From: Roseibium aggregatum
GTDB taxonomy: Bacteria; Pseudomonadota; Alphaproteobacteria; Rhizobiales; Stappiaceae
DNA: 64,000 nt
Reading direction: 5' to 3'
Assembly: GCF_014692675.1 (NCBI RefSeq)
Contig: NZ_JABFCZ010000012.1
Span: 62,001-126,000, forward strand
Both the position numbers and the translations under genes were made by a program. Shown in pieces: positions 1 to 37,079 of this stretch. Positions within the stretch are counted from its first letter, which is position 1, and the number at the start of each line of letters is the position of its first letter. The notes below the pieces were generated by a model, which was not told the origin of the DNA, did not search any database, and saw nothing but the letters and a program-made list of their open reading frames with translations.

Positions 1-673
1 GGAACAGATACTCATCCGGCCCGACCGAGCCGAGATACTGCATCTGCAGGTTCAATTCGCCGCCCGGATTGAGCGCGAACGGATCGAGACGGGCCGATGA
101 GGCGCCTTCTTCGCGGCCGAGCCACTCGCCCAGCGCGCCGGCAATTTCCTTCAACAGCGCATCACCGCTCGGCGTGGTGCCGATGAGCTGGTGCGTTTGC
201 GGCGTCGACCAGTGCAGGTCGCCTGCGCGGGAGACCGCAAGCAGGTGCCGGCCGGCGGCATCGAGTGCGATCCGCGCGCTTTGCACCGAGCGGGAATTGG
301 CCAGATGAACCCGGATGCGGGCCTGAAGCTCGTCGATGTTAATCGGCTTGGTCAGAAAATCGACCCCGCCGGATTCCAGCGCGTGGACGATATGTTCGGT
401 CTCGCTCAGGCCGGTCATGAAGATCACCGGCACGTGCTGAAGATGAGCCTTGGCCTTGATCTGCTCGCAGGTTTCGAACCCGGACAGGCCGGGCATGATG
501 GCGTCCATCAGGATCATGTCCGGCGTCACCCGGTCGGCAACGGACAGCGCCGCGGCCCCGCTGGTGGCCACAAGGACAGTCACGCCGGCATTTTCCAGGG
601 CCTGGGTCAGAAAGCCCAGGGTTTCGGGAGAATCGTCAACGACCAGGACAATGTCGCGCTGCTTTTCAGTCAT
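1..673 (-). CDS. Response regulator, receiver domain N-terminal (C-terminus cut by window edge)
   Basis: About 224 residues are visible, reading leftward from an ATG at 673. The first 120 residues form a canonical CheY-type receiver: acidic pair near residues 13-14 (VVDDS), phospho-acceptor Asp57 in ILMDAIMPG, the T-G-L-S switch and the FLTKP lysine motif. A linker/sensor-like segment without obvious homology follows, and the end lies outside the window. A LuxR-type HTH output domain is likely in this family context but is not visible. The start overlaps the stop of the upstream kinase by 8 bp (666-673), so the two are translationally coupled and this is probably the cognate regulator of that kinase. 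Confidence 0.85.
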   Translation of the reverse strand, partial: MTEKQRDIVLVVDDSPETLGFLTQALENAGVTVLVATSGAAALSVADRVTPDMILMDAIMPGLSGFETCEQIKAKAHLQHVPVIFMTGLSETEHIVHALESGGVDFLTKPINIDELQARIRVHLANSRSVQSARIALDAAGRHLLAVSRAGDLHWSTPQTHQLIGTTPSGDALLKEIAGALGEWLGREEGASSARLDPFALNPGGELNLQMQYLGSVGPDEYLF

Positions 674-3600
674 CGGCGGCAAGTCCTTCCAGGACCTTGG
701 TGTAGCTGTCGAAATCGAACTGTTTCAGATGCCCGCGCAAGGTGGTGACCAGCGGACCGTTTTCCGGATTACCGGAAAGCTCGGCAAGCTTGGCCTCGAT
801 TCCATGGATATAGCCGATTTCTCCCAGGCTGATCAGTTCGCGGACATGAATAGTCCCCGGATTGATGACCGGGTCGTCTGCAACATGGCCGTTGGCCTGC
901 GGCCTGTTCTTCACATCGTCTCCGGTCCAGGTCAGGTCCAGATGTTTCTGGATCTTGTCCAGAAGCTGGCGCAGATCGAACGGCTTTGCCAGCGTATCAT
1001 CGTGCAGGCTCGGCCCGTCCGGCCGTAGCGTCTGATCGCCGATATTCGCCGAGAGCATGATCACGGGCTGGTCCATGCCTTCTTCGCGCAGGCGTTTGAC
1101 GAGTTCCCAGCCGTTCATTCCGGGCATCAGGATGTCGATCAGGAACAGATCGGCTTCGCCTTTTCCAATTTCATCCAGGCATTCCGCGCCGCTATTGGCC
1201 TCCTTGAGGTCGAAGCCGAGCGGCGTCAGGATTTCGCGGATCAGCGCCCTGTGATCCGGATTGTCGTCGACGACCGCAATCGTGCGTCGCTCGCCCGCAT
1301 AGCCGCGGATCCGCTGTTCCGGCGGCCGCACCTTCACCGGCCGGGCCACTTCGGCCAGCATGAGCCGGACTTCGAAGGCACTCCCCTTGCCGGGCTCGCT
1401 GGACAGCGCAATCGCGCCGCCGAGGGTTTCGGCGAGGAGCTTGGTGATTGTCAAACCCAGACCCAGCCCCGGCGTCCGCTTGATTTTCTCGTCCTCGCTG
1501 CGCCCGAACGGCTCGAAGATCTTGGTCTGTTCGGAAAGCGGAATGCCCGGGCCGGTGTCGGTGACGGTAAAGGTCGCGACCTGCGACCGGTAACCGACCT
1601 CGAGGCTGACCGTGCCCGTATCGGTGAACTTGATCGCGTTGGACAGGAGGTTCACCAGGATCTGGCGCAGGCGCTTTTCGTCGGTGCGCACATAGACCGG
1701 CAGGTTCTTCGCCTTCGCGAACTCGAAGCCGAGCCCCCTGGCCGCCGCCTGCATCTTGAACATGTCCACGATCTGATCGAGGAACTCGTGGATGTTGACT
1801 TCGTTGGAATAGACCTGAAGGCGTCCGGCCTCGATCCGGGAAATGTCGAGCAACCCGTCGATCAGGCCGGAGAGATGCTCCGCGCTCCTTCTGATCGTGC
1901 TGACGTTGGATTTGCGGCTTTCCGGCAGAGCGTTGTCCCGCTCCAGCACCTGGGCATAACCCAGCACTGCATTGAGCGGCGTGCGCAATTCGTGGGACAG
2001 GCCGACCACGTAGCGGCTCTTGGCAAGGTTGGCGGCTTCCGCATCCTCCTTGGCCTTTTGCAGGGCGGCGTCGGTGATCCGGTGGGCGTCGATTTCCTTT
2101 TGCAGCAACGCGTTCTGGCGCGCCGATTCCTCCTCCGCCACCCGCCGGGTATCATGGGCAAGAACCAGGAACCAGGACGAGATCCCGGCAGCGACGGCAA
2201 ACACGAAAAAGACCAGCGCCACGGTCTGGCCGATGATCACTGCAGAGTCGGGAAACCGCTCCGCCGCCTGATTGTATATGACCCAGAGCACGAAACCGAT
2301 GGCCGCAATCGACGGCACCACCGTCAGCGCATAGCGGCCGAGACGGGTGTTCAGATGGGCAATCGTTCGCTCGGACAGAAACCTGGCTGCGACGACACCG
2401 ACCTGGTGATTGATGCGTGCGTTCGGCTTGCACAGGTCGTGACAACGGGCATCGAGCGAACAGCACAGCGAGCAGATCGGCGCCTGATAGGCCGGGCAAT
2501 AGGCCATGTCTTCCGGCTCGAACGGGTTTTCGCAGATCGAACAGGCGATCGTATCGGCATTCTGCCAGCTCTTGCGGGGCTTGCGCGCAAGATAGAAACG
2601 GCCCTTTGTCAGGGCCGCGATCGCCGGCACCGCCATGAAGGCGACACCCATGGCGATGAACGTGGACAGGGCTGCAGCTTCCTTGCCGAAATAGCCGTAA
2701 TAGGCAACCAGGGACAGGACGGCGGCAAGCACCATCCCACCGGTGCCCACCGGGTTGATGTCGAACAGATGCGCGCGCTTGAATTCGATGCCGGGCGGCG
2801 ACAGGCCGAGCGGCTTGTTGATGAAGAGGTCGGCGGAAATGGCGCTAAGCCAGGCCATGGCGATGATGGAAAACACGCCGAGCGTTTCTTCCAGAAGCTT
2901 GTAGATGCCAAGCTCCATCAACAGGAGCGCGATGCCGACATTGAACACCAGCCAGACGACCCGCCCCGGATGGCTGTGGGTCAGCCGGGAAAAGAAGTTC
3001 GACCAGGCAAGCGACCCGGCATAGGCGTTCATGACGTTGATCTTGAGCTGCGAGACAACCACGAAGGCGACCATCAAAAGCAGGGCCATCTGTTCCGACG
3101 GGATCATGTAGCCGAAGGCGACCGCATACATGCGCGACGGCTCGTCCGCCTGATCCACCGGGATCCCGGCCGAGAGCGCAAGGACGGCAAGGAACGACCC
3201 GGCGAGCATTTTCGGCGCACCAAGCACGACCCATCCGGGACCGGCGAGAAACAGGGCAAGCTTGTGCCGCTTGCGGGCAAAATCCTGTGCGGGGAGGAAG
3301 CGCAGGAAATCGACCTGCTCGCCGATCTGCGCCATCAGCGCCAGGATGACCGCCGACGCCGCACCGAAACTGATCAGGTTGAGGTCGGAAAAACCCGGTC
3401 CGGCGGCCTTCACCGCCCCTGTTGCGTGATCGACCCCGCCGAAGCCGAACCATGCCCCGACCGCCTGCCAGTCGGAAAAGGCGATCACGATGAACGGCAG
3501 GATGTTGAGGACGATCCAGAACGGCTGGGTGATCAGCTGGAACCGGCTGATCAGGGTGATGCCGTGGGTCACGAGCGGGATCACCGCCACCGCCGAGATG

Positions 3601-4061
3601 ATGTAGCCGATCCACAGCGGCACCCCGAACGCATAGTCCAGGGCGCCGGACATGATCGAGGCCTCGATGGCGAACAGGATGAAGGTGAAGCTGGCGTAGA
3701 TCAGCGAGGTAACCGTCGACCCGATATAGCCGAAACCGGCGCCGCGGGTGAGCAGGTCGATATCGACGCCGTAACGCATGGCATAACGGCTGATCGGCAC
3801 CCCGATGAAGAGGATGACGATGCTTCCGACCAGAATGGCGACAAAGGCATTGGTGGTCCCGTAGGACAGGGTGATCGCTCCGCCGATGGCCTCAAGCGCC
3901 AGAAAGGAAATCGCACCGATGGCCGTTTGCGAGATCCGGCGCGAGGAGAACCGGCGCGCGCTCTTGGCCGTGAAGCGCAACGCATAATCTTCCAGGGTCT
4001 GGTTGTTGACCCACTGATTGTACTGACGCCTGACAGGGATGATGCGTTGGCGTGCGGCCAT
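666..4061 (-). CDS. NCS1-type permease fused to hybrid sensor histidine kinase and receiver
   Basis: 1131 residues. The first ~490 are a multi-pass membrane domain resembling NCS1 cytosine/purine/allantoin permeases (N-terminal NNQTLEDYALRF and a long series of TM helices). A cluster of eight cysteines follows (about residues 509-544: CSIC, C, CSLCC, C, C), then two more TM segments, then a kinase core: H-box HELRTPLNAV (His near 691), N-box LLSNAIKFT, G-boxes DTGPGIP and GLGLGLTI. A receiver domain (about 928-1045, Asp near 975 in LIDILMPGMNG) and a ~90-residue tail complete it. It should sit in the inner membrane and phosphorylate itself and the overlapping response regulator. Lying next to the divergently read urt operon, it may sense urea or a related nitrogen solute (inference). 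Whether the permease still transports is unknown. Confidence 0.9.
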   Translation of the reverse strand: MAARQRIIPVRRQYNQWVNNQTLEDYALRFTAKSARRFSSRRISQTAIGAISFLALEAIGGAITLSYGTTNAFVAILVGSIVILFIGVPISRYAMRYGVDIDLLTRGAGFGYIGSTVTSLIYASFTFILFAIEASIMSGALDYAFGVPLWIGYIISAVAVIPLVTHGITLISRFQLITQPFWIVLNILPFIVIAFSDWQAVGAWFGFGGVDHATGAVKAAGPGFSDLNLISFGAASAVILALMAQIGEQVDFLRFLPAQDFARKRHKLALFLAGPGWVVLGAPKMLAGSFLAVLALSAGIPVDQADEPSRMYAVAFGYMIPSEQMALLLMVAFVVVSQLKINVMNAYAGSLAWSNFFSRLTHSHPGRVVWLVFNVGIALLLMELGIYKLLEETLGVFSIIAMAWLSAISADLFINKPLGLSPPGIEFKRAHLFDINPVGTGGMVLAAVLSLVAYYGYFGKEAAALSTFIAMGVAFMAVPAIAALTKGRFYLARKPRKSWQNADTIACSICENPFEPEDMAYCPAYQAPICSLCCSLDARCHDLCKPNARINHQVGVVAARFLSERTIAHLNTRLGRYALTVVPSIAAIGFVLWVIYNQAAERFPDSAVIIGQTVALVFFVFAVAAGISSWFLVLAHDTRRVAEEESARQNALLQKEIDAHRITDAALQKAKEDAEAANLAKSRYVVGLSHELRTPLNAVLGYAQVLERDNALPESRKSNVSTIRRSAEHLSGLIDGLLDISRIEAGRLQVYSNEVNIHEFLDQIVDMFKMQAAARGLGFEFAKAKNLPVYVRTDEKRLRQILVNLLSNAIKFTDTGTVSLEVGYRSQVATFTVTDTGPGIPLSEQTKIFEPFGRSEDEKIKRTPGLGLGLTITKLLAETLGGAIALSSEPGKGSAFEVRLMLAEVARPVKVRPPEQRIRGYAGERRTIAVVDDNPDHRALIREILTPLGFDLKEANSGAECLDEIGKGEADLFLIDILMPGMNGWELVKRLREEGMDQPVIMLSANIGDQTLRPDGPSLHDDTLAKPFDLRQLLDKIQKHLDLTWTGDDVKNRPQANGHVADDPVINPGTIHVRELISLGEIGYIHGIEAKLAELSGNPENGPLVTTLRGHLKQFDFDSYTKVLEGLAADD

Positions 4062-4311: not shown

Positions 4312-4734
4312 ATGAAAAAGACACTTACAGCGCTCGCAACGATATTCGTTCTTACCCACGCATCTTCTGCAATGGCCTGGAGCCTCGGCGATGCGGTCAA
4401 GGGGGCCATCAGCGGCAACTTCTCCGGAGCCGGTGCCGGCACAAACTCCAGTGGGGCAGACAACGACACTGCGACCACCGGCACCCACGGCAACGACGAA
4501 CGCGCCGGCCATGACACAAATGACAATAACGGCGCCGGCGGCGACGACAGCGCCGACCACGACAGCAACGATCACGACAGCGCCGGGCATGACGGCTCGG
4601 ACAGCGGCGACTCCGGCAGTGACGGTGGCGACAGCGGCGGAAGCGACGGCGGAAGCGATGGCGGAAGCGATGGCGGAAGCGACGGTGGCGACGGCGGAAG
4701 CGACGGCGGAAGCGACGGCGGCGATCACGACTGA
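4312..4734 (+). CDS. Small exported acidic Asp/Gly/Ser-rich repeat protein
   Basis: 140 residues. A typical signal peptide (MKKTLTALATIFVLTHASSA, cleavage around AMA-W, residue 23) is followed by a short WSLGDAVKGAISG segment and then a low-complexity acidic region rich in D, N, H, S and G that ends in GGSDGGSD repeats and DHD. An AGGATC-type ribosome site lies just upstream of the ATG, and a strong terminator follows at 4770-4800, so the plus-strand frame is real rather than the long antisense frame. I do not recognise a family. The Asp/His-rich composition would suit binding of divalent cations in the periplasm or outside the cell (inference only). Confidence 0.7.
   Translation: MKKTLTALATIFVLTHASSAMAWSLGDAVKGAISGNFSGAGAGTNSSGADNDTATTGTHGNDERAGHDTNDNNGAGGDDSADHDSNDHDSAGHDGSDSGDSGSDGGDSGGSDGGSDGGSDGGSDGGDGGSDGGSDGGDHD
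4621..4733 (+). repeat. In-gene tandem 12-bp repeat (GGCGGAAGCGAY units)
   Basis: About seven imperfect copies of a 12-base unit, GGCGGAAGCGAC/T, encode the G-G-S-D repeat at the C-terminus of the acidic exported protein. The unit length is a multiple of three, so slippage would change repeat number without a frameshift. The same periodicity opens long meaningless frames on the opposite strand. Confidence 0.8.
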
Positions 4735-4800: not shown

Positions 4801-5178
4801 CTGTCACCGGCCTCCGGACCGACGTCCGTTTCCAGGAACAGGCGGATGGGATGCCCCCTCAAGAAATACGCTGTTCTTACGATGGCACGACAGGATCTGA
4901 CTATTTTCTGATCATTTGCCCAAACAATAATCAAACGCAAAGCGAATACGGCCGATAAGCGGCGCTATTGCGCACCCTGCATCATTCCGAGTGCCGTTTT
5001 TCTACCCCCTTGTCAGTTCTCGGGAGATCGACCGGCTGCGCGTTTTGCGCAAAAGGCGCAGCCGACTACGTCATTCGACGTATGTTGCACTGCGGCAACT
5101 CCCCTCACGATCCTTCTCCGACGGCGGCTCATCGGCCTGCCGCAGCGCTTCCACAGGGATCACGCAGAGGGGAACAAC
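4801..5178. other. Non-coding region upstream of urtA
   Basis: No convincing gene. It must hold the urtA promoter. The left part (about 4900-4950) is AT-richer than its surroundings. The centre holds a palindrome TTTTGCGCAAAA (5043-5054), and a smaller inverted repeat ACGTC-N4-GACGT lies near 5068-5081. I looked for a sigma-54 -24/-12 element (GG and GC ten bases apart with TTGC) and saw no good match. The SD for urtA (AGAGGGG) ends just before 5179. Confidence 0.6.
5043..5054. promoter_or_regulatory. Perfect 12-bp palindrome upstream of urtA
   Basis: TTTTGCGCAAAA is a perfect palindrome, extended imperfectly to GCGTTTTGCGCAAAAGGC. It lies 125-136 bp upstream of the urtA start. It could be a regulator binding site for the urt promoter. 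It does not match the NtrC consensus I know, and no regulator is assigned. Confidence 0.3.
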
Positions 5179-6465
5179 ATGAAAACCAAACTGACTGGCC
5201 TGGCTCTCGCCGGGTTGATGGCATCCAACATGTTCAGCGGCGCTTATGCAGCAGACGACACGATCAAGGTCGGCATCCTGCATTCGCTTTCCGGCACCAT
5301 GGCCATTTCCGAGACCACGCTGAAAGACGCCATGCTGATGCTCATCGACGAGCAGAACAAGAAGGGTGGCCTGCTCGGCAAGAAACTCGAGGCCGTGGTC
5401 GTCGACCCGGCGTCCGACTGGCCGCTGTTTGCCGAAAAAGCCCGCGAGCTGATCGAAGTCGACAAGGTTTCCGCCGTTTTCGGCTGCTGGACCTCCGTAT
5501 CGCGCAAGTCCGTCCTGCCGGTGTTCGAAGAGCTGAACTCGATCCTGTTCTACCCGGTTCAGTACGAAGGTGAGGAATCCCAGCGCAACGTGTTCTACAC
5601 GGGTGCCGCTCCGAACCAGCAGGCCATCCCGGCCGTCGACTACCTCATGGAAAATGAAGGCGTCGAGCGCTGGGTTCTGGCCGGCACCGACTACGTCTAT
5701 CCGCGCACGACCAACAAGATCCTCGAAGCCTACCTGAAAGCCAAGGGCGTCGCTGAAGAAGACATCATGATCAACTACACGCCGTTCGGTCATTCCGACT
5801 GGCAGACGATCGTGTCCGACATCAAGGCCTTCGGTTCTGCCGGCAAGAAGACGGCCGTGGTTTCCACCATCAACGGCGACGCCAACGTGCCGTTCTACAA
5901 GGAACTCGGCAACCAGGGTATCAAGGCCGAAGATATCCCGGTCGTGGCCTTCTCCGTGGGTGAGGAAGAACTCGCCGGTCTCGACACCGGTCCGCTCGTC
6001 GGCCACCTGGCTGCCTGGAACTACTTCGAGTCCGCCGACACCGACGCCAACGCCCAGTTCATCGACACCTGGCACGCGTTCATCAAGGACGACAAGCGCG
6101 TGACCAACGACCCGATGGAAGCGCATTACATCGGCTTCAACATGTGGGTGAAGGCCGTTGAGAAGGCCGGCACCACCGATCCGGATGCGGTCATCGACGC
6201 CCTCGTCGGCGTGTCCGTGCCGAACCTGACCGGCGGCTACTCGGCCATGATGCCGAACCACCACATCACCAAGCCGGTCCTGATCGGCGAGATCCAGGCA
6301 GACGGCCAGTTCGAAACCGTGTGGGAAACCTCCGGCCTCGTTCCGGGCGACGCATGGTCCGATTACCTGGAAGGCTCCAAGGACCTGATCTCCGATTGGC
6401 GCGCACCGCTATCCTGCGGCAACTTCAACACCGCCACCGGCAAGTGCGGCGGTTCGGGCTCCTAA
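5179..6465 (+). CDS. urtA: Urea ABC transporter, periplasmic substrate-binding protein
   Basis: 428 residues, the usual UrtA length. A signal peptide (MKTKLTGLALAGLMASNMFS, cleavage after AYA near residue 23) precedes a type I periplasmic binding fold of the branched-chain amino acid/amide family: IKVGILHSLSGTMAISE at the start of the mature protein, then VFGCWTSVSRKSVLPVFEE and NSILFYPVQYEGEES, all typical of UrtA. It binds urea in the periplasm and delivers it to UrtBC. A good SD (GAGGGG) fixes the start. It is the first gene of urtABCDE and is separated from urtB by 100 bp that carry a strong hairpin, as expected when a binding protein is made in excess over its permease. Confidence 0.96.
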   Translation: MKTKLTGLALAGLMASNMFSGAYAADDTIKVGILHSLSGTMAISETTLKDAMLMLIDEQNKKGGLLGKKLEAVVVDPASDWPLFAEKARELIEVDKVSAVFGCWTSVSRKSVLPVFEELNSILFYPVQYEGEESQRNVFYTGAAPNQQAIPAVDYLMENEGVERWVLAGTDYVYPRTTNKILEAYLKAKGVAEEDIMINYTPFGHSDWQTIVSDIKAFGSAGKKTAVVSTINGDANVPFYKELGNQGIKAEDIPVVAFSVGEEELAGLDTGPLVGHLAAWNYFESADTDANAQFIDTWHAFIKDDKRVTNDPMEAHYIGFNMWVKAVEKAGTTDPDAVIDALVGVSVPNLTGGYSAMMPNHHITKPVLIGEIQADGQFETVWETSGLVPGDAWSDYLEGSKDLISDWRAPLSCGNFNTATGKCGGSGS

Positions 6466-6565: not shown

Positions 6566-8197
6566 ATGTCCTTGCTCAGATCGCTTGCCCTTGTCATCGG
6601 ATTGCTTGTTGTTGCTCTCGGTGCCGGATCGGTCCCGGCAGCAGCCCAGAACGATACCGAAAGCCTGCGCCCGCTCATCAACGCGCTTGCGGACGGCAAA
6701 TACAAGGAGACCGAGAAGCAGATCGGCGACCTGGCCGCGACGGGAAATCCGGTGGTCGCTCCGGCGCTGGAAGCCCTTTCGGATGGCGACCTCTATTTCA
6801 GGAAGTCCGACAAGCAGGTGTTCATCACCAGCAAATCAGGCGAGGGCTATGCGCTGACCGACCCGCTGACGCTGGAAAGCGCCGGCGAAGCCGGAAAGCG
6901 AGAAGTCAGCAAGATCAAGGTCAACAACAGCCTGCGCCGGGTGATCCGATCGGCACTCGGATCCCTGACGCTGATGGCGGCGGACCCGAAGGTGCGCAAG
7001 GAGGCTGCCGAAGCGGTGTTCAAGGCCAAGGATCCGGATGCGATCGAAGGCCTCGATACCGCTATTGCAAAGGAGACGAATGATGAAGTCCGTTTGGTCA
7101 TGGAGCAGGCCCGGGCCGCGGCCGTTCTTAATTCCGACCGCAGTGACGGTGAAAAGCTTGAAGCCGTCGAAGTCCTGAGCAGCATGGGCAACAGGGACGC
7201 CCTGTCCCTTCTGATCGGTGTTCGCGACAGCTCGACAGGCGACCTGCAGGCGGCGGCGGCGACCGCGGTGAAGCGGATCGAAAAGACGCTGGCCCTTTGG
7301 GACAATGCCCAGAACATCTGGTACGGCCTGTCGCTCGGCTCCGTGCTGCTGCTGGCGGCCATCGGCCTGGCGATTACCTTCGGCGTCATGGGCGTCATCA
7401 ACATGGCCCACGGCGAAATGGTAATGATCGGCGCCTACGTCACCTTCATGGTGCAGGAGGTGATCCGCAATTCCGCCCCCGGCCTGTTCGACTATTCGCT
7501 TCTGATCGCGCTTCCGCTGGCCTTCCTCGTGTCAGGCGCCATCGGTGTCGGCATCGAACGCGGCATCATCCGCTGGCTCTACGGCCGGCCGCTGGAAACG
7601 CTGCTGGCCACCTGGGGCCTGTCGCTGATCCTGCAGCAGGCGGTGCGCTCCCTGTTCGGCCCGACCAACCGGGAAGTCGGCAATCCGGACTGGATGTCCG
7701 GCGCCTTCGAGATCGGCCAGATGACCGTCACCTACAACCGCATGTGGATCATCTTCTTCGCGCTCGCCGTGTTTGCAGGCCTGATGCTGGTTCTGAAGAA
7801 GACGCCCTTCGGCCTTTACACCCGGGCCGTCACCCAGAACCGGCGCATGGCCGCCTCCATGGGCATCCGCACGCCTTGGATCGACGCGCTGACCTTCGGC
7901 CTGGGCTCGGGTATTGCCGGGATTGCCGGCGTGGCCCTCAGCCAGATCGACAACGTGTCGCCCAACCTCGGCCAGGGCTACATCATCGACAGCTTCATGG
8001 TGGTGGTCTTCGGCGGGGTCGGCAATCTCTGGGGCACGCTGGTCGGCGCCATGACGCTCGGTGTCGTCAACAAGTTCCTTGAGCCTTATGCGGGAGCCGT
8101 GCTGGGCAAGATCTTCGTGCTCGTCTTCATCATCCTCTTTATCCAGAAGCGTCCACGGGGCCTGTTCGCCCTCAAGGGCCGGGCAGTCGAAGCATGA
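6566..8197 (+). CDS. urtB: Urea ABC transporter, permease UrtB
   Basis: 543 residues. An N-terminal signal-like helix (about 1-27) and a ~220-residue soluble segment, as in proteobacterial UrtB, come before a LivH-type permease of about eight TM helices from residue ~250 (LWDNAQNIWYGLSLGSVLLL). GVMGVINMAHGEMVMIGAYV is the characteristic LivH/UrtB motif. It forms the inner-membrane channel with UrtC, energised by UrtD and UrtE. The stop overlaps the urtC start by 4 bp (ATGA at 8194-8197), indicating coupled translation. Confidence 0.95.
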   Translation: MSLLRSLALVIGLLVVALGAGSVPAAAQNDTESLRPLINALADGKYKETEKQIGDLAATGNPVVAPALEALSDGDLYFRKSDKQVFITSKSGEGYALTDPLTLESAGEAGKREVSKIKVNNSLRRVIRSALGSLTLMAADPKVRKEAAEAVFKAKDPDAIEGLDTAIAKETNDEVRLVMEQARAAAVLNSDRSDGEKLEAVEVLSSMGNRDALSLLIGVRDSSTGDLQAAAATAVKRIEKTLALWDNAQNIWYGLSLGSVLLLAAIGLAITFGVMGVINMAHGEMVMIGAYVTFMVQEVIRNSAPGLFDYSLLIALPLAFLVSGAIGVGIERGIIRWLYGRPLETLLATWGLSLILQQAVRSLFGPTNREVGNPDWMSGAFEIGQMTVTYNRMWIIFFALAVFAGLMLVLKKTPFGLYTRAVTQNRRMAASMGIRTPWIDALTFGLGSGIAGIAGVALSQIDNVSPNLGQGYIIDSFMVVVFGGVGNLWGTLVGAMTLGVVNKFLEPYAGAVLGKIFVLVFIILFIQKRPRGLFALKGRAVEA

Positions 8198-9408
8198 TGA
8201 CCTCGTTTCTCTTCAGGGCCCTGGACGCCAGGGCCGGTCTGTTCCTGATCATCCTTCTGGCACTGACCGTCGCGATCCCGGCATCGAACCTTCTCCTGCC
8301 GGAGACCAGCCCGCTGCACGTTCCGACCTACGCGGTCACGCTGATGGGCAAGTACCTGACCTATGCGCTGCTCGCCCTGTCGGTCGACCTGGTCTGGGGC
8401 TACTGCGGCATTCTCTCGCTCGGCCACGGCGCGTTCTTCGCCCTCGGCGGCTATGCCATGGGCATGTACCTGATGCGCCAGATCGGCAGCCGCGGCGTCT
8501 ACGGCGACCCGCTCCTGCCGGACTTCATGGTGTTCCTGAACTGGAAGGAACTGCCGTGGTACTGGTATGGCTTCGACATGTTCCCGTTCGCGGCGATCAT
8601 GGTGTTGTTCGTGCCGGGCCTGCTTGCCTTCGTCTTCGGCTGGTTCGCCTTCCGCTCGCGGGTCACCGGCGTCTATCTGTCGATCATCACCCAGGCGCTG
8701 ACCTATGCGCTGCTGCTCGCCTTCTTCCGCAATGACATGGGCTTCGGCGGCAACAACGGCCTGACCGACTTCAAGGACATTCTCGGGTTCGACGTTCAGG
8801 CGGACAGCACCCGGGCCGGTCTGTTCATCGCCTCCGGGCTTGCCCTTGCCCTGTGCTTCCTGCTGTGCCGCGCCCTGACCCGGTCCAAGCTCGGCAAGGT
8901 GCTGGTTGCAGTGCGCGACGCGGAAAGCCGGACCCGCTTTCTCGGCTACCGGGTGGAACACTACAAGCTGTTCGTCTGGACCATCTCGGCCATGATGGCC
9001 GGCATTGCCGGTGCGCTTTACGTCCCCCAGGTCGGCATCATCAATCCGGGCGAGTTCTCGCCGGCCAACTCCATTGAAGTGGTGATCTGGGTGGCCGTCG
9101 GCGGACGCGGAACCCTGATCGGCCCGGTCATCGGCGCCGTGCTGGTCAACTTCGCCAAGACCTGGTTCACCGCCGCCCTGCCGGATATCTGGCTGTTCGC
9201 TCTCGGCGGCCTGTTCCTGGGCGTGACCCTGTTCCTGCCCAAGGGCATCGTCGGCACGGTTTCCCAGGGCTGGAGCGCACTGCGTCAACGGTCCGCCTCT
9301 GCCGCCTACGAGGCCGGATCGGACGAACCGCCCGGCAGCCCCGACGCGCCTGCCGACGTCTCCCACAAGAGGGCGTCTTCGGACGCCTCACCCCAGCCTG
9401 CGGAGTGA
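8194..9408 (+). CDS. urtC: Urea ABC transporter, permease UrtC
   Basis: 404 residues. A LivM-type permease with about ten hydrophobic segments: LVWGYCGILSLGHGAFFALG is the family signature, SRVTGVYLSIITQALTYALL lies in the middle, and NPGEFSPANSIEVVIWVAVG near residues 285-305 is typical of UrtC. A ~50-residue polar tail (PPGSPDAPADVSHKRAS) extends into the cytoplasm. It pairs with UrtB to form the translocation pore. It overlaps urtB by 4 bp and is followed after 4 bp by urtD. Confidence 0.95.
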   Translation: MMTSFLFRALDARAGLFLIILLALTVAIPASNLLLPETSPLHVPTYAVTLMGKYLTYALLALSVDLVWGYCGILSLGHGAFFALGGYAMGMYLMRQIGSRGVYGDPLLPDFMVFLNWKELPWYWYGFDMFPFAAIMVLFVPGLLAFVFGWFAFRSRVTGVYLSIITQALTYALLLAFFRNDMGFGGNNGLTDFKDILGFDVQADSTRAGLFIASGLALALCFLLCRALTRSKLGKVLVAVRDAESRTRFLGYRVEHYKLFVWTISAMMAGIAGALYVPQVGIINPGEFSPANSIEVVIWVAVGGRGTLIGPVIGAVLVNFAKTWFTAALPDIWLFALGGLFLGVTLFLPKGIVGTVSQGWSALRQRSASAAYEAGSDEPPGSPDAPADVSHKRASSDASPQPAE

Positions 9409-9412
9409 CACC

Positions 9413-10159
9413 ATGAGCCGCCAAACCAGCCTGCTTTATCTCGATGGCGTGTCGGTGTCCTTCGACGGCTTCAAGGCGCTGAACGACCTGTCCCTCGTGA
9501 TCGCCGAGGGGGAAATGCGGGCCATCATCGGCCCGAACGGGGCCGGCAAGACCACCATGATGGACGTCATCACCGGCAAGACCCGGCCCGATACCGGCGA
9601 GGTCTATTTCAACGGCGTCGTCGACCTGACCGGCGAGGACGAAGCCGCAATTGCGGAACTCGGCATCGGCCGGAAATTCCAGAAGCCGACCGTCTTCGAA
9701 AGCCATACGGTCTGGGACAACCTGGAGCTGGCGCTGAAAGCCCCGCGCGGACCGTTCGCAACACTGTTTCATGTCATCTCCGGCGGCGAGAAAAAGCGGA
9801 TCGAGGATTTGCTGGAGCTGATCCGGCTCGGTGACAAGCGGAACGAACTTGCCGCCAATCTCTCCCACGGCCAGAAGCAGTGGCTGGAAATCGGCATGCT
9901 GCTCGCCCAGGACCCGAAGCTCCTGCTCGTGGACGAACCGGCCGCCGGCATGACCGATGCCGAAACAGCAGAAACCGCTGAACTCCTGAAAGACATCGCC
10001 CAGACCCACTCCGTCGTCGTGGTCGAACATGACATGACCTTCGTGCGCTCGCTCGGGGTCAAGGTTACCGTGCTGCACGAGGGCTCGGTGCTGGCCGAGG
10101 GCTCGCTCGACCATGTTTCGGCCGACGAGCGGGTCGTCGAAGTCTATCTGGGCCGGTGA
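9413..10159 (+). CDS. urtD: Urea ABC transporter, ATP-binding protein UrtD
   Basis: 248 residues, a LivG-like ATPase. Walker A is GPNGAGKTT (about 42-50), the signature is LSHGQKQWLEI instead of the usual LSGGQ (normal for UrtD), Walker B is LLLVDEP, and the H-loop VVVEHDM is present. It powers the UrtBC permease from the cytoplasmic side together with UrtE. A GGAG ribosome site overlaps the end of urtC. Confidence 0.95.
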   Translation: MSRQTSLLYLDGVSVSFDGFKALNDLSLVIAEGEMRAIIGPNGAGKTTMMDVITGKTRPDTGEVYFNGVVDLTGEDEAAIAELGIGRKFQKPTVFESHTVWDNLELALKAPRGPFATLFHVISGGEKKRIEDLLELIRLGDKRNELAANLSHGQKQWLEIGMLLAQDPKLLLVDEPAAGMTDAETAETAELLKDIAQTHSVVVVEHDMTFVRSLGVKVTVLHEGSVLAEGSLDHVSADERVVEVYLGR

Positions 10160-10169
10160 GGAAAGACCC

Positions 10170-10865
10170 ATGCTGAGCGTTGAAAACATCGATCTCTATT
10201 ATGGCGCCGCGCAGGCTCTGAAGGGCGTATCCCTCAAGGCAGAAGTCGGCAAGGTCACCTGCCTCATGGGCCGCAACGGCGTCGGCAAGACCTCGACCCT
10301 GCGCGCGGTCGTCGGCCAGCACCCGGTCAGTTCCGGCAGGATCCTGTGGAACGGTGAGGACGTCTCCCGGCTCGCCCCCCATGCCCGGGCCAAGCGCGGG
10401 ATCGCCATCGTCCCCCAGGGCCGGGAGATCTTCCCGCTGCTCACGGTGAAGGAAAACCTGGAAACGGGCTATGCCTGCGTCCCCCGCAAGGACCGGAAGA
10501 TCCCGGAGACCATCTTCGAACTGTTTCCGGTTTTGAAATCCATGCTCTCGCGCCGGGGCGGCGACCTGTCCGGCGGCCAGCAGCAGCAACTGGCCATTGC
10601 CCGGGCGCTGATTACCCGACCGAAGCTTCTGGTGCTCGACGAGCCGACCGAAGGCATTCAGCCCTCGATCATCAAGGATATCGGCCGGGCGATCGAATGG
10701 CTCCGCGAACAGGGCGAAATGGCCATCGTTCTTGTCGAGCAGTATTTCGAGTTCGCGAGGGACCTTGCGGACGACTTTGCCGTCATGGACCGGGGGGAAG
10801 TCGTCATGGCCGGTGCGCGCGCCGACCTGGAGGAGACCCGGGTCCGCCAGCATCTCACGGTCTGA
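10170..10865 (+). CDS. urtE: Urea ABC transporter, ATP-binding protein UrtE
   Basis: 231 residues, a LivF-like ATPase. Walker A is GRNGVGKTS (about 35-43), the signature is LSGGQQQQLAIARAL, Walker B is LLVLDEPTEGIQPSI and the H-loop is VLVEQY. The open frame runs back to 10113 inside urtD, but the ATG at 10170 has a GAGGAAAG ribosome site and gives the standard UrtE length, so it is preferred. A short inverted repeat CCGGCA-GCT-TGCCGG (10868-10882) follows the stop without a T-run, so read-through into the M20 peptidase gene 101 bp downstream is possible. Confidence 0.95.
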   Translation: MLSVENIDLYYGAAQALKGVSLKAEVGKVTCLMGRNGVGKTSTLRAVVGQHPVSSGRILWNGEDVSRLAPHARAKRGIAIVPQGREIFPLLTVKENLETGYACVPRKDRKIPETIFELFPVLKSMLSRRGGDLSGGQQQQLAIARALITRPKLLVLDEPTEGIQPSIIKDIGRAIEWLREQGEMAIVLVEQYFEFARDLADDFAVMDRGEVVMAGARADLEETRVRQHLTV

Positions 10866-10966
10866 GCCCGGCAGCTTGCCGGCCAAAAGGACGCAGGGCT
10901 TTCGGCGATCGGTTTCAGTTGATAGGGTCCGGTGCATCACCCTCCCCTATCCGCTCGAGATACTCC

Positions 10967-12256
10967 ATGACCGAACCGCTTTCCCCTGCTGATATCGACC
11001 GCATCAAACAGGCCGTCGAGGCCAATTTCGAGACACAGGTTTCCTTCCTGCAGGACCTCGTTCGGACCGCTTCGCTCAGGGGGGAAGAGGCAGCCGTCCA
11101 GGCAACCGTCGCACGGGCACTGGTCGATCGCAGCTACGACGTCGAACGTTTCGGTGTCGACCCGGAAGCGGTCGACGAACATCCGGCCTATTCGCCGGCA
11201 ACCATCGATTATGCGGACACATTCAACGTATCCGGCATCAAGACGCCGAAAACGCAAAAGGGCCGTTCCCTGATCCTGAACGCTCATACGGATGTGGTGC
11301 CGACCGCTGATCCGTCCGCATGGACCTACCCGCCGTTTTCCGCCACCCGCGACGGCGACTGGCTTTACGGCCGCGGCGCGGGTGATATGAAGGCAGGACT
11401 GGTGGCCAATATCTTTGCCGTCGACGCGATTGAAGCTGCCGGCTTCCGGCTGACCGGTCCGCTTCAGATCCAGTCGGTGGTGGATGAAGAGACCACCGGC
11501 AACGGCGCGGCCGCTGCCATCCATCGCGGCTACACCGCCGATGCGGTGCTTATTCCCGAACCGACGGACGAGCAGCTCGTCTTCGCCAATGCCGGCGTGA
11601 TCAAGTTCAAAATCACCACACGGGGCGTTCCCGCCCATCCGCGCGATCCGGACTCCGGCCTCAGCGCCATCGATGCCGCCATTCAGCTCATCGGCCATCT
11701 GAAGAGGCTTGAAAAGACCTGGAATGAGGAACGGCACAAACACGCGGGCTTTGAAAACCTGCGGAACCCGGCAAGCCTGAATATCGGAACCATTTCCGGT
11801 GGCGAATGGCCGTCTTCGGTCCCCTTTGCCTGCGTCTTCGAAGGACGTATCGGCTTCTTCCCCGGCGAGGATCCGTGGGAGCGGGCAAGGGAAGTCGAAG
11901 ACAGTATCGCGGCGCTGCTGTCCGAGGACGCCCGCCTCGCCCGGTCCGCGCCGACGGTGGAATGGGTCGGCACCATGCAGGCAGGCTACCGCCTCGCCGA
12001 CACGTCGCCCGCGGAAGACGCGCTCCAGACGGCCCATGGCCTGGTGCATAACGGCGATCTTGGCCGCTACATCATGGCCTGCTATCTGGACGCCACGCTG
12101 TTCGCCAATCACGCGGGCATCCCGGCCCTGACCTACGGCCCGATCGCGGAAAACATCCACGGCATCGACGAACGCGTGAACCTGCCGTCGCTCAAGCGGA
12201 TCACGGAAACCATCGCGCTGTTTACGGCAAGCTGGTGCGGCATCGAGACGGCGTGA
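10967..12256 (+). CDS. M20 family ArgE/DapE-type deacylase
   Basis: 429 residues from the ATG at 10967; the open frame extends upstream without support. M20 metallopeptidase motifs are clear: AHTDVVP (first metal ligands), GRGAGDMKAGL (bridging Asp), DEETTGNG (catalytic Glu plus metal Glu), PEPTDEQLVFANAGVIKF and a C-terminal metal His in GPIAENIHGIDERVN. The family hydrolyses N-acyl or N-carbamoyl bonds of amino acids or small amides in the cytoplasm. Placement behind urtABCDE fits a role in amide nitrogen use, but the substrate cannot be read from sequence. A strong SD is not evident. Confidence 0.88.
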   Translation: MTEPLSPADIDRIKQAVEANFETQVSFLQDLVRTASLRGEEAAVQATVARALVDRSYDVERFGVDPEAVDEHPAYSPATIDYADTFNVSGIKTPKTQKGRSLILNAHTDVVPTADPSAWTYPPFSATRDGDWLYGRGAGDMKAGLVANIFAVDAIEAAGFRLTGPLQIQSVVDEETTGNGAAAAIHRGYTADAVLIPEPTDEQLVFANAGVIKFKITTRGVPAHPRDPDSGLSAIDAAIQLIGHLKRLEKTWNEERHKHAGFENLRNPASLNIGTISGGEWPSSVPFACVFEGRIGFFPGEDPWERAREVEDSIAALLSEDARLARSAPTVEWVGTMQAGYRLADTSPAEDALQTAHGLVHNGDLGRYIMACYLDATLFANHAGIPALTYGPIAENIHGIDERVNLPSLKRITETIALFTASWCGIETA

Positions 12257-33557: not shown

Positions 33558-36500
33558 ATGATGAATGAAGGTTGGGTCGTGATACTGGTTGCAGTGGGGT
33601 ATATTCTCCTGCTGTTTGCCATTGCCAGCTACGGGGACCGGATGCCGCGCCGCGTCATCCCCGGGCGGGGACGGCCGTTGATCTATGCGCTTTCGCTTTC
33701 GGTCTACTGTACATCCTGGACATTTTACGGCTCTGTCGGCGGTGCGAGCCGTAACGGCATCGAATTCCTGACGATCTATATCGGCCCGTTGCTTGTTTTC
33801 GGCCTCGGCTACACGCTCCTGCGCCGGATCATCCGCATCGCAAAGACGGAAAGCATCACCTCGATCGCGGATTTCATCGGCGCCCGCTACGGCAAGAGCC
33901 AGTCTGTCGCCGCCGTCGCCACCATCATCGCCGTGATCGGGATCATCCCCTACATTGCATTGCAGCTGAAAGCGGTCTCGCTTTCCATCACCACCATGGT
34001 CGGCCCGCTCATTACGCCGACTGAAGGCTATTTTCCCGTCTTCGACGACATCACCTTGCTGATCGCCATCGGCATGGCCGTTTTCACATGGCTGTTCGGC
34101 ACCCGGCATATCGATGCGACCGAACACCAGGAAGGCCTGATGCTGGCCATCGCATCGGAAGCGATCGTCAAGCTGGTCGCTTTCCTTGCTCTCGGCATCT
34201 GGGTGACCTTTACCCTCTACGACGGTCCCATCGACCTGGTGCGCGCCATCTCCGGGGCGCCCGAAGTGGCTGCCGTCTTCGATCAGCCTCTCAACCATGA
34301 AAACTGGCTGGTCATGACGGTGCTGTCGTCCTTCGCCGTTGTCATGCTGCCGCGCCAGTTCCACGTGATGGTGACGGAAAACAATTCCGAGGGAGAGTTG
34401 CGCCGGGCCGTCTGGCTGTTTCCGTTCTATCTGATCCTGATCAACCTGTTTGTGGTCCCGATTGCCGCTGCCGGCCTGCTGCGCTTCGGTCAGGACGTCA
34501 ATCCGGACACCTTCGTGCTGGCGCTCCCCCTCGATGCCGGTGAGCACTGGCTGGCGATGTTCGCCTTTATCGGCGGGCTTTCTGCGGCAACAGCGATGGT
34601 GATCGTGGCAACCGTCGCGCTTGCGATCATGATCTGCAATGACATCGTCGTGCCGCTGATCCTCCGCAGGCGCAGCGAAGAGGAACTGCTCGCCGGCGGC
34701 CGTGACATGAGCCGCCATCTGCTGAGCATCCGGCGCATGGCGATTTTCGGCATTCTGCTGCTTGCCTACGCCTATTACCGGGCGGCCGGCGACACGGCGG
34801 CGCTGGTCTCCATCGGCCTCTTGTCGTTTGCCGCCATAGCCCAGTTCGCACCCGCCTTCATCGGCGCCCTGGTCTGGCGCAGGGCAACGGCCCGCGGGGC
34901 GATCGCCGGAATGGTTGCGGGTTTCGCCTTCTGGTTCTACACGCTGCTTCTGCCCACTTTCGCAAAATCCGGCATCGTCTCCTCGACCATTCTGGACACC
35001 GGCCCGCTCGGCCTGGCCTTCCTGAAGCCGCAGTCGCTTCTCGGAATTCAGATGGATCCCTTCATTCACGGAACCATGTGGAGCCTGCTGATCAACGTCC
35101 TGTTCTTCGTGGCGGGTTCCCTGACACGGGCCCCGGAGCCGGCGGAAAAGCTGCAGGCCAATATCTTCGTGCCGGACGAGATCGCCCCGGCTCCAAGCCT
35201 CAGGCTCTGGCGCACCTCGGTCACGGCCGGTGACCTGACGGCGACGCTTGCGCGTTATCTCGGCGAGGAGCGGGCCAACCGCTCGTTCAACCGCTATGCG
35301 CAGGAGCGCGGCAGCGTTCTGGATCCGAATGCTCCGGCGGACGCCAGCCTGCTCAGGTTTTCAGAACAGCTGCTGGCCAGCGCCATCGGCGCGGCCTCCT
35401 CCCGCCTCGTCCTGTCCTTGATGCTCAAGCGCCATGACCCTTCCACGAAGGGAGCGGTCAAGCTGCTCGACGACGCCTCGGCCGCGATCCAGTACAACCG
35501 GGACCTTCTGCAGACCGCGCTCGACCAGGTTCGCCAGGGCATCGGCGTGTTCGACCGGGACCTGCGCCTGATCTGCTGGAACCGGCAGTTCCGCGATCTC
35601 CTCGAACTGCCGACCGAATACGGCCAGGTCGGCACGACGCTCGACGCCATTGTCCGCTACAATGCCAAGCGCGGCGAAATCGGAGACGGGCCGGTAGAGG
35701 CCGTCGTATCGGAACGCCTGGAAAAGCTGGTCGTCGCGCAGGAAACCCATCAGGAGCGCCTTGCCTCTTCGGGCACGGTTCTCGAGGTCCGGATCAGTCC
35801 GATGCCCGACGGCGGTATCGTGATCACCTATACGGACATCACCGAGCGCGTGCTCGCCGAAGACGCGCTCGCCCGCGCCAACGAAACCCTTGAACGGCGG
35901 GTTCGGGAACGCACCGAAGAACTGACCCATGTGAATGACCGCCTGCGGGAAGCGACCCATGCCGCGGAAGAGGCAAACATCGGCAAGACGCGCTTTCTCG
36001 CTGCCGCTGGCCACGACATTCTGCAGCCGCTGAATGCGGCCCGGCTTTATTCATCGGTCCTCGTGGAAAAGCTGAAGGACGGCGAAACCGGAACGCTGGT
36101 GCGCAATGTGGAAGGCGCGCTTGAATCGGTCGAGGACATCATCAGCGCGGTGCTGGATATTTCCCGCCTCGATACCGGCGCCCTGAAACCGGAACTGACG
36201 GTCTTCCGCCTCGACGTTCTTTTCCGCGCTCTGGAAACCGAATTCGAACCGGTGGCACGGGAAAGAAACCTCGAACTGACGTTCGTGCCGACTTCTGTTT
36301 CGGTGCGCTCGGACCGCAGGCTGTTGCGCCGCCTGCTTCAGAACCTGGTGTCGAACGCGCTCAAATACACGACAAAAGGCCGCGTCCTTGTCGGCTGCAG
36401 GCGCAAGAACGGTAAGGTGGTCATCGAAGTTCATGACACCGGCATGGGGGTTCCGGGAACCAAGCAGAAGGTGATCTTCCAGGAATTCCATCGCCTCGAC

Positions 36501-37079
36501 GACGGCATGCGGGTCGCCAAGGGGCTCGGGCTGGGTCTTTCCATCGTCGAACGTATCGCCCATGTCCTGGAGCATCCGGTCGATCTGCGGTCCGCTGTGG
36601 GCAAGGGATCCTGCTTTGCCGTCACGCTGCCGACCGCAGCTGCCGTTCCGCTCGAAACGCCCTTGCAGAGCACTGCGCCCGCGAAAGGACAACTCGACGG
36701 GCTATGCGTGCTGGCGATCGACAACGAACCGGACATCCTGAGCGGCATGCGTCATCTGCTGGAAAACTGGAACTGCAAGGTCATCACTGCGCGCGACGAC
36801 GCGGAAGCCATTGAAAGGCTGCTGGAAACCGGCGATACCCCGGATATCATCGTGATCGATTATCATCTTGACGACGGGAACGGCATCGATGCGGTCGTTC
36901 GTCTCAGGTGGAAATTCGGCGCCGGCATCCCGGCCCTGCTGGTGACCGCCGACCGGAGCCGGGCGGTCCGGGCCGCAGCCGCGGCCAAGAACATCGAGAT
37001 GTTCAACAAGCCGATCAAGCCTGCGGCGCTGCGGGCCCATCTGGCCCGCTGCCGCGCGGAGCATGTTGCCGCCGAATAG
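33558..37079 (+). CDS. SSS/SLC5 permease fused to PAS-hybrid histidine kinase (CrbS-like)
   Basis: 1173 residues. Residues 1 to ~500 form a sodium:solute symporter domain with about thirteen TM helices ([36 protein letters not shown]). After a linker, a PAS_7-like domain (about 650-760: [20 protein letters not shown]), a coiled coil ([16 protein letters not shown]), a histidine kinase ([12 protein letters not shown], His near 819; [25 protein letters not shown]) and a receiver (Asp near 1100 in [13 protein letters not shown]) follow. The layout matches CrbS/MxtR kinases that respond to acetate and control acs in gammaproteobacteria. The facing LuxR-type gene is the likely partner. Confidence 0.93.

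Follow-up and report, generated by a model that had tools for sequence, protein, structure and literature searches.

A transporter-kinase fusion beside the urea transporter genes of Roseibium aggregatum is a candidate sensor of urea or short-chain amides

Introduction

Why is a permease fused to a histidine kinase and placed next to genes for urea uptake? This question is raised by a 64,000-nucleotide stretch of Roseibium aggregatum DNA (NCBI RefSeq assembly GCF_014692675.1, contig NZ_JABFCZ010000012.1, positions 62,001 to 126,000 of the forward strand; hereafter the window). One open reading frame in it joins an NCS1-type permease domain to a hybrid sensor histidine kinase and diverges from the urea transporter operon urtABCDE. 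Urea and small amides are major nitrogen sources. We analyzed computationally the fold and domains of this protein, its conserved gene linkage and a DNA motif upstream of urtA that co-occurs with the kinase. The protein is probably a sensor kinase that derives from a transporter, responds to urea or related short-chain amides and acts via its response regulator on the urtA palindrome. It belongs to a widespread and barely studied family, and the comparison of genomes suggests that this family switches on the uptake and breakdown of urea or small amides.

Domain architecture of the hybrid kinase

The gene lies on the minus strand and starts with ATG. Its product and the adjacent regulator are divided as follows.

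666..4061, minus strand: permease-fused hybrid sensor histidine kinase, 1131 residues (open reading frame, Pfam, homologue searches)
2577..4004, minus strand: NCS1-fold permease domain, residues 20-495 (hhalign, AlphaFold model, fold searches, conservation)
2430..2543, minus strand: eight-cysteine stretch, residues 507-544, C-x2-C-x11-C-x7-C-x2-CC-x5-C-x3-C (invariance in alignments)
2154..2345, minus strand: two long helices, residues 573-636 (model secondary structure; hydrophobicity by eye)
1824..2021, minus strand: HisKA, residues 681-746 (PF00512)
1356..1685, minus strand: HATPase_c, residues 793-902 (PF02518)
948..1280, minus strand: receiver, residues 928-1038, with D976 invariant in 18 aligned rows (PF00072)
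678..866, minus strand: short C-terminal helical region, residues 1066-1128 (partly conserved in the 18-row alignment; helices in the full-length model)
1..682, minus strand: LuxR/NarL-type response regulator, cut by the left window edge (PF00072, PF00196)

The protein has the features of a hybrid kinase: HisKA, HATPase_c and receiver domains, a conserved histidine and aspartate, and a cognate regulator gene adjacent to its own. H690 is the phosphoacceptor by its motif SHELRTPLN and is invariant in the 18 aligned rows. Pfam places no domain above cut-off in residues 1-680, including residues 496-680, and no PAS domain in the whole protein. The helix pair of residues 573-636 is taken, from the model, to be an additional pair of transmembrane segments that connects to the kinase. 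The regulator frame starts at 682 on the minus strand and overlaps the kinase gene by at most 17 bp; it is complete in the genome (L009:9756-10682), where it encodes 308 residues with a receiver and a GerE/LuxR domain. The original prediction, made from the sequence alone, had described one 1131-residue protein made of permease, eight cysteines, histidine kinase and receiver and overlapping a response regulator gene. Open reading frame, Pfam, hhalign and structure agree on this protein, and the genome confirms the overlapping regulator. The fusion is already reflected in annotation names from JGI ('signal transduction histidine kinase/.../purine-cytosine permease-like'). Relatives about 46-97% identical over residues 1-660 occur in many genomes, which confirms that the architecture is far beyond chance. 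The AlphaFold model used for the fold covers residues 1-660, is based on a 64-row alignment and is of good quality. A full-length model from the 18-row alignment has a pLDDT mostly below 50 in the permease and was excluded from fold claims.

The permease domain has an NCS1 fold

In local hhalign comparisons the permease domain matches an NCS1 alignment (23 of 25 fetched rows, long ones dropped) at 98.2% with E 5.7e-14 over 384 columns. Two separate NCS1 subsets give 92.6% over 118 columns and 95.5% over 362 columns, compared with 1.3% for an SSS alignment and 0.6% for UrtC. The SSS value rules out an SSS origin of the domain; PF00474 (SSS) has no match in the genome. A structure search with the predicted model returned the NCS1 transporters CodB (cytosine) and Mhp1 (hydantoin) as top matches with 14-16% identity, and the predicted fold is nearer to NCS1 than to other LeuT-fold families. 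The NCS1 assignment of the original prediction thus stands for residues 20-495 by profile and fold, though curated models do not detect it. PF02133 finds no match in the kinase protein and none in the 5.66 Mb genome at E<=10. The window protein differs from CodB and Mhp1 in escaping PF02133 and in its linkage to urea and amide genes. When the PDB was searched by sequence alone, the family profile retrieved no NCS1 chain, the single match (E 3.1) being unrelated; with a wider profile, the 60 matches listed are kinases and receivers.

Conservation was read from 78 members (80 regions fetched for diversity and not at random, less three unfused permeases, plus the window's own locus). E57, E133, Q245, E248, Q249, D251, K340, N342 and N345 are identical in all 78. 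Homologues of the permease domain that lack the kinase also exist, carrying all, part or few of the eight cysteines. In all 78 kinase-fused members position 56 is L, C or M and position 57 is E, while the nine free-standing relatives in the comparison all carry D56, followed by F or Q. At residue 406, 41 of 43 amide-linked members have G, and five of six urea-linked lineages have a different amino acid. It was chosen from about 620 columns, with three independent pairs on supported branches, for which a sign test cannot reach significance, and as a specificity determinant it is a lead only.

These residues bear on whether the domain still transports. With the same wiring, it could be an active transporter, with transport rather than ligand occupancy being sensed, as proposed for CbrA. 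The NCS1 fold and most polar residues are kept, and the SSS domain of CbrA is reported to transport histidine (PMC13022988, PMC7918813). The difference at positions 56 and 57 hints instead at a changed coupling site, and a dedicated ABC transporter is usually present, so that a second route is not needed. We regard active transport as possible but rather doubtful.

The eight-cysteine stretch

Cysteines 507, 510, 522, 530, 533, 534, 540 and 544 are invariant in alignments of 13 and of 78 members, as expected from the cluster first noticed in the sequence. The AlphaFold model is less certain across this stretch (block means 59-84), which is a probable metal site. A different reading is suggested by these residues: the signal could be a general or a cytoplasmic one (membrane energy, or the redox or metal state, possibly read through the cysteines), with urt as one output among others. 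The invariance of all eight positions favors this. The cysteines are degenerate in eight of nine free-standing permease relatives and intact in one, so they look like the C-terminus of the permease and not like a kinase input, which argues against it. In four urease-linked members (L101-L104) the match is broken between permease and cysteine stretch (residues ~494-506), and the break is filled by inserts of roughly 20-60 residues.

Linkage to urea and amide genes

The urea transporter genes lie beside the kinase gene on the opposite strand, as originally predicted, each above its NCBIfam cut-off.

5179..6465, plus strand: urtA, urea ABC transporter substrate-binding protein (TIGR03407, 573 bits, cut-off 493)
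6566..8197, plus strand: urtB, permease subunit with N-terminal extension (TIGR03409)
8194..9408, plus strand: urtC, permease subunit (TIGR03408)
9413..10159, plus strand: urtD, ATP-binding subunit (TIGR03411)
10170..10865, plus strand: urtE, ATP-binding subunit (TIGR03410), start placed by eye at an internal ATG, with the longest frame opening at 10113

This linkage is conserved in other genomes. The 78 loci are related to one another, and their counts are of non-independent events. A LuxR regulator adjoins the kinase in 75, and a Urt-type ABC transporter (>38% identity) is within reach in 68. Formamidase is found in 42 loci, aliphatic amidase in 13 and urease genes in 16, and any of the three in 58; models confirm the representatives of the enzyme clusters as FmdA, aliphatic amidase, FmdB zinc ribbon and urease alpha. 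Two kinds of ABC operon occur. True Urt operons have a UrtA about 64-97% identical to that of the window. Amide-type operons have a UrtA of about 40% identity and usually fmdA/fmdB or amiE behind them, and their UrtB lacks the N-terminal extension, which in the window amounts to about 248 residues before the TIGR03409 match. The NCBIfam UrtA model accepts both kinds. On a quick tree of the permease domains, which has long branches, the urea/amide context label takes 7 changes compared with 27.9 in shuffles. Both large clades contain urea-linked members, and the well-supported branches require a minimum of 3 changes for the amide context and 4 for the urea context.

The original prediction of a conserved urt linkage is thereby borne out, with urt or urt-like operons at those 68 loci, while its solute class can be refined: the urea context stands, short-chain amides are added by the formamidase and amidase genes, and no allantoin gene appears among the labelled conserved neighbors. 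The ligand could instead be one of those of known NCS1 proteins (a nucleobase, hydantoin or allantoin), the urt linkage then reflecting its catabolism to urea. CodB and Mhp1 are the best structural matches, and allantoin or purines can yield urea. The conserved neighbors are formamidase, amidase and urease, and no purine, allantoin or hydantoin gene was recognized among the larger neighbor clusters labelled, at which no model search for such genes was aimed. A ligand of this kind seems very unlikely to us.

The best evidence for the ligand class comes from the neighborhoods of the free-standing permeases, which point to urea and amides. These proteins are 39-43% identical to the window permease domain (measured in seven of 11). 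Urease, formamidase or aliphatic amidase flanks the permease at seven of 11 loci, a count that includes two pairs from similar loci and covers flanks of 5-7 kb on each side. In Klebsiella and Acinetobacter the free-standing permease adjoins urease genes, in Moraxella and Tsukamurella formamidase, and in Arthrobacter sp. U41 (L307:6935-8611) aliphatic amidase together with acetate-CoA ligase. In Acinetobacter baumannii and Methylovirgula, sensor and free-standing homologue are neighbors. A Klebsiella relative, 41% identical over 530 residues, passes PF02133 (38.1 bits, cut-off 23.5); those of Arthrobacter and A. baumannii fall below the cut-off. The Klebsiella 'cytosine permease' directly after urease genes (L313:6971-8578, for which the 41% was measured, and L317:5971-7578) is likely to be a misnamed urea permease. 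The permease/formamidase pair of Moraxella (L314) lies on a plasmid amid insertion sequences and genes for aminoglycoside-modifying enzymes.

A palindrome upstream of urtA

5067..5082, no strand assigned: palindrome TACGTCATTCGACGTA, 97 bp before the start codon of urtA, predicted to be a response-regulator site

The pattern TACGTNNNNNNACGTA / TACGT-N6-ACGTA has a single exact match in the window, at 5067-5082, and differs from the longer consensus at one base. That consensus, derived from 46 sites, reads TACGTCA-N2-TGACGTAT (TACGTCA-N2-TGACGTA); its outermost four bases at either end served as the search key and are therefore uniform by construction. A de novo search for inverted repeats found exact TACG-N8-CGTA in 24 of 43 amide-type and eight of 31 urea-type upstream regions; when each set was shuffled once, the best dyad reached 5 (amide) and 4 (urea). 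Across the 5.66 Mb genome there are two exact copies of the pattern: the urtA site, one base away from the long consensus, and C22:3816, three bases away. The second place, near a sigma-32-like gene named by eye, was considered as a further target and, with its three differences, is taken as chance.

Across 158 loci, 140 have a UrtA-like gene. A loose site lies up to 450 bp upstream in 113 of these, mostly at 75-180 bp, compared with 25 of 1000 random windows from the same loci; the strict form precedes UrtA in 71 of 140. The site still precedes urtA where the kinase is kilobases away (L117, L122). Discovery and test sets overlap in part and the loci are related, which two controls avoid. The first is kinase-less genomes, 25 of 48 of which have a UrtA match: among 30 UrtA loci, 26 upstream regions were read (L300-L303, at <=36% identity, and five further matches were omitted) and none has the palindrome, with UrtA 69-90% identical in 24 of the 26. 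The second is loci from plasmid records added later, where the site is present in eight of nine with the kinase and in none of 11 with a free-standing permease only. Seven of these eight have it either ahead of the linked gene or between that gene and the kinase; in L322 it is far away and assigned to no gene, and the urease-linked L323 has none. Since the palindrome upstream of urtA tracks the presence of the kinase, urt is likely a direct target of the regulator. In Methylovirgula the palindrome precedes both fmdA and amiE. In L066, a porin-like gene (PF07396; L066:11266-12552) lies between kinase and urtA, and the palindrome is upstream of the porin-like gene.

Comparison with known systems

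The nearest architectures are CbrA/CbrB, CrbS/CrbR (MxtR/ErdR) and RpuS/RpuR, which likewise couple a LeuT-fold transporter domain to a histidine kinase. As here, the kinases CrbS and RpuS are of hybrid type and have a LuxR-type regulator; an inverted repeat marks the CrbR targets. In contrast to these SSS(SLC5)-STAC kinases, the transporter here is of NCS1 type, Pfam shows no PAS domain, the cysteine stretch and two helices occupy the STAC position, and the linked genes concern urea and amides rather than acetate, pyruvate or histidine. The ammonium sensor kinase of Kuenenia stuttgartiensis likewise combines a transporter fold for a nitrogen solute with a kinase (PMC5764959), but of Amt/Rh type and for ammonium. 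FmdCABDEF of Methylophilus methylotrophus comprises formamidase and a high-affinity transporter for short-chain amides and urea, and is induced by formamide and urea. Its gene set is much like that of the amide-type loci, and its regulator is described as a 'putative positive regulator' (PMC10781810). Among the papers listed in full-text literature searches, judged by title and start of abstract and with subscription papers mostly outside, we found no NCS1-type sensor kinase or two-component system for urt or fmd, and no dedicated bacterial sensor inducing urt, formamidase or urease via a transporter-like receptor.

One member has probably been studied already. AmsS of A. baumannii (AmsS/AmsR, ABUW_2427/2426) is a hybrid kinase with 14 predicted transmembrane helices and a LuxR/NarL regulator immediately downstream, and the section describing it mentions no PAS domain (PMC10112286). 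The A. baumannii record L305 holds a 1157-residue member with HisKA, HATPase and receiver only and a LuxR regulator downstream. The pair diverges from a free-standing homologue of the permease and has katE and a hydrophilin gene (both named by eye) nearby, in the order katE - hydrophilin - ... - permease - kinase - regulator. This order fits the published tags (DtpA ABUW_2433, DtpC ABUW_2437 next to katE, AmsSR ABUW_2427/2426), and the sole other HisKA match in a frame above 1000 residues in L305 carries PAS domains. AmsS is thus probably a member of the NCS1-kinase family, by synteny and domains taken from L305 and not from AB5075.

If so, AmsS adds to the case for a general or cytoplasmic signal, as it is reported to be induced by CCCP and its loss to affect membrane potential (PMC10112286); the SLC5 domain of CbrA, reported as non-essential for signal perception (PMC9100948), points the same way. 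The context of the family is mostly urea and amide genes and the exact palindrome occurs at only two places in the genome, both of which speak against such a signal. We consider it improbable.

Proposed mechanism

In the scheme that we favor, a sensor of urea or short-chain amides, we infer the ligand, phosphotransfer, DNA binding and direction of regulation as follows. Binding (or passage) of the ligand in the NCS1-fold domain would alter the state of the histidine kinase, the signal passing through the extra transmembrane pair and a coiled helix/linker. Phosphate would move from H690 to D976 and on to the LuxR-type regulator of the overlapping gene, or directly to the regulator. The phosphorylated regulator would bind the palindrome about 100 bp upstream of urtA and turn high-affinity uptake on. 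In relatives, the pair may be wired to an amide-type Urt operon with formamidase or amidase, to urease genes, or to a free-standing homologous permease.

Several results weigh against this scheme. Perception by CbrA is reported not to need its SLC5 domain and to be probably cytoplasmic (PMC9100948), which by analogy slightly lowers our confidence in the permease as the sensor. The AmsS mutant shows broad changes in energy metabolism and its promoter responds to CCCP, and a term search of the AmsSR main text finds no urea, amidase, permease or symporter (PMC10112286). If AmsS is a member, these phenotypes either count against a narrow role or reflect untried conditions. Four of the 78 loci have neither a Urt-type ABC transporter nor a urea/amide enzyme in reach, and four of the 11 free-standing permeases (L309, L311, L318, L319) have no urea/amide neighbor within 5-7 kb per side. 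In the urea set alone, the four-base dyad TGCC-N9-GGCA is also found in eight of 31 regions. With up to two mismatches the window holds six matches to the palindrome against 6.5 expected by chance, and with up to one mismatch the genome holds 22 against 65 for a reversed control, so that the pattern is rarer. At 27 of the 140 loci no site lies upstream of UrtA; these include entire groups of urea-linked loci (L086, L087, L089; L067) as well as several amide-linked loci.

For the origin of the sensor we offer a tentative proposal. A urea/amide-specific branch of NCS1 proteins, annotated as cytosine/allantoin permeases or hypothetical, may have become a receptor; loss of D56 and gain of the invariant E57 near the start of the first membrane helix would uncouple transport, and occupancy of the frozen transporter would drive the kinase. 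If true, a dead transporter copy would decide when the live transporter is made, as in A. baumannii and Methylovirgula. Sensor/transporter pairs that differ at two first-helix residues make this question directly testable. Members of this candidate family of urea/amide sensors are carried by hundreds of genomes, those of rhizobia among them, and by conjugative Klebsiella plasmids; a DNA site is predicted for it, and in the genome of the window it has one clear target. The family also suggests a substrate for a group of 'cytosine/allantoin permeases' that adjoin urease and are probably misnamed, and it proposes a domain identity for AmsS.

Spread of the family and further observations

All figures of spread include the window's own genome. 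At a threshold of E<=1e-10, 20 of 289 genomes from the same class and 39 of 61 relatives have a match. In a phylum sample the figure at E<=1e-3 is 65 of 398 genomes; for 52 of them E is <1e-100, and the remaining 13 have weaker matches in frames of at most 623 residues. A scan of GTDB contigs gave at least 586 confirmed stretches, of which 80 were kept. In PLSDB, a 660-residue query at E<=1e-30 matches 524 of 72,556 records, 342 from Klebsiella and 78 from Sinorhizobium, and some of these matches are free-standing permeases. Sinorhizobium meliloti strain ml21 has the kinase, its regulator and urtABCDE together on pSymB. A conjugative Klebsiella plasmid (L306:5909-15381) carries the kinase, an amide-type urt operon and formamidase. 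Two members of about 890 residues without a receiver (L099, L100) lie near fmdA/fmdB and have no adjacent same-strand regulator of the family.

In the window itself, the plus strand between kinase and urtA (4312-4734) encodes a secreted-looking protein of 140 residues with SDGG-type repeats and no Pfam match. An M20 ArgE/DapE-type deacylase gene follows urtE (10697-12256, plus strand) and is kept in two near relatives (L112, L118). Another kinase region is found at 35841-36953 (G000:C33:97841-98953), within an open frame of 1192 residues.

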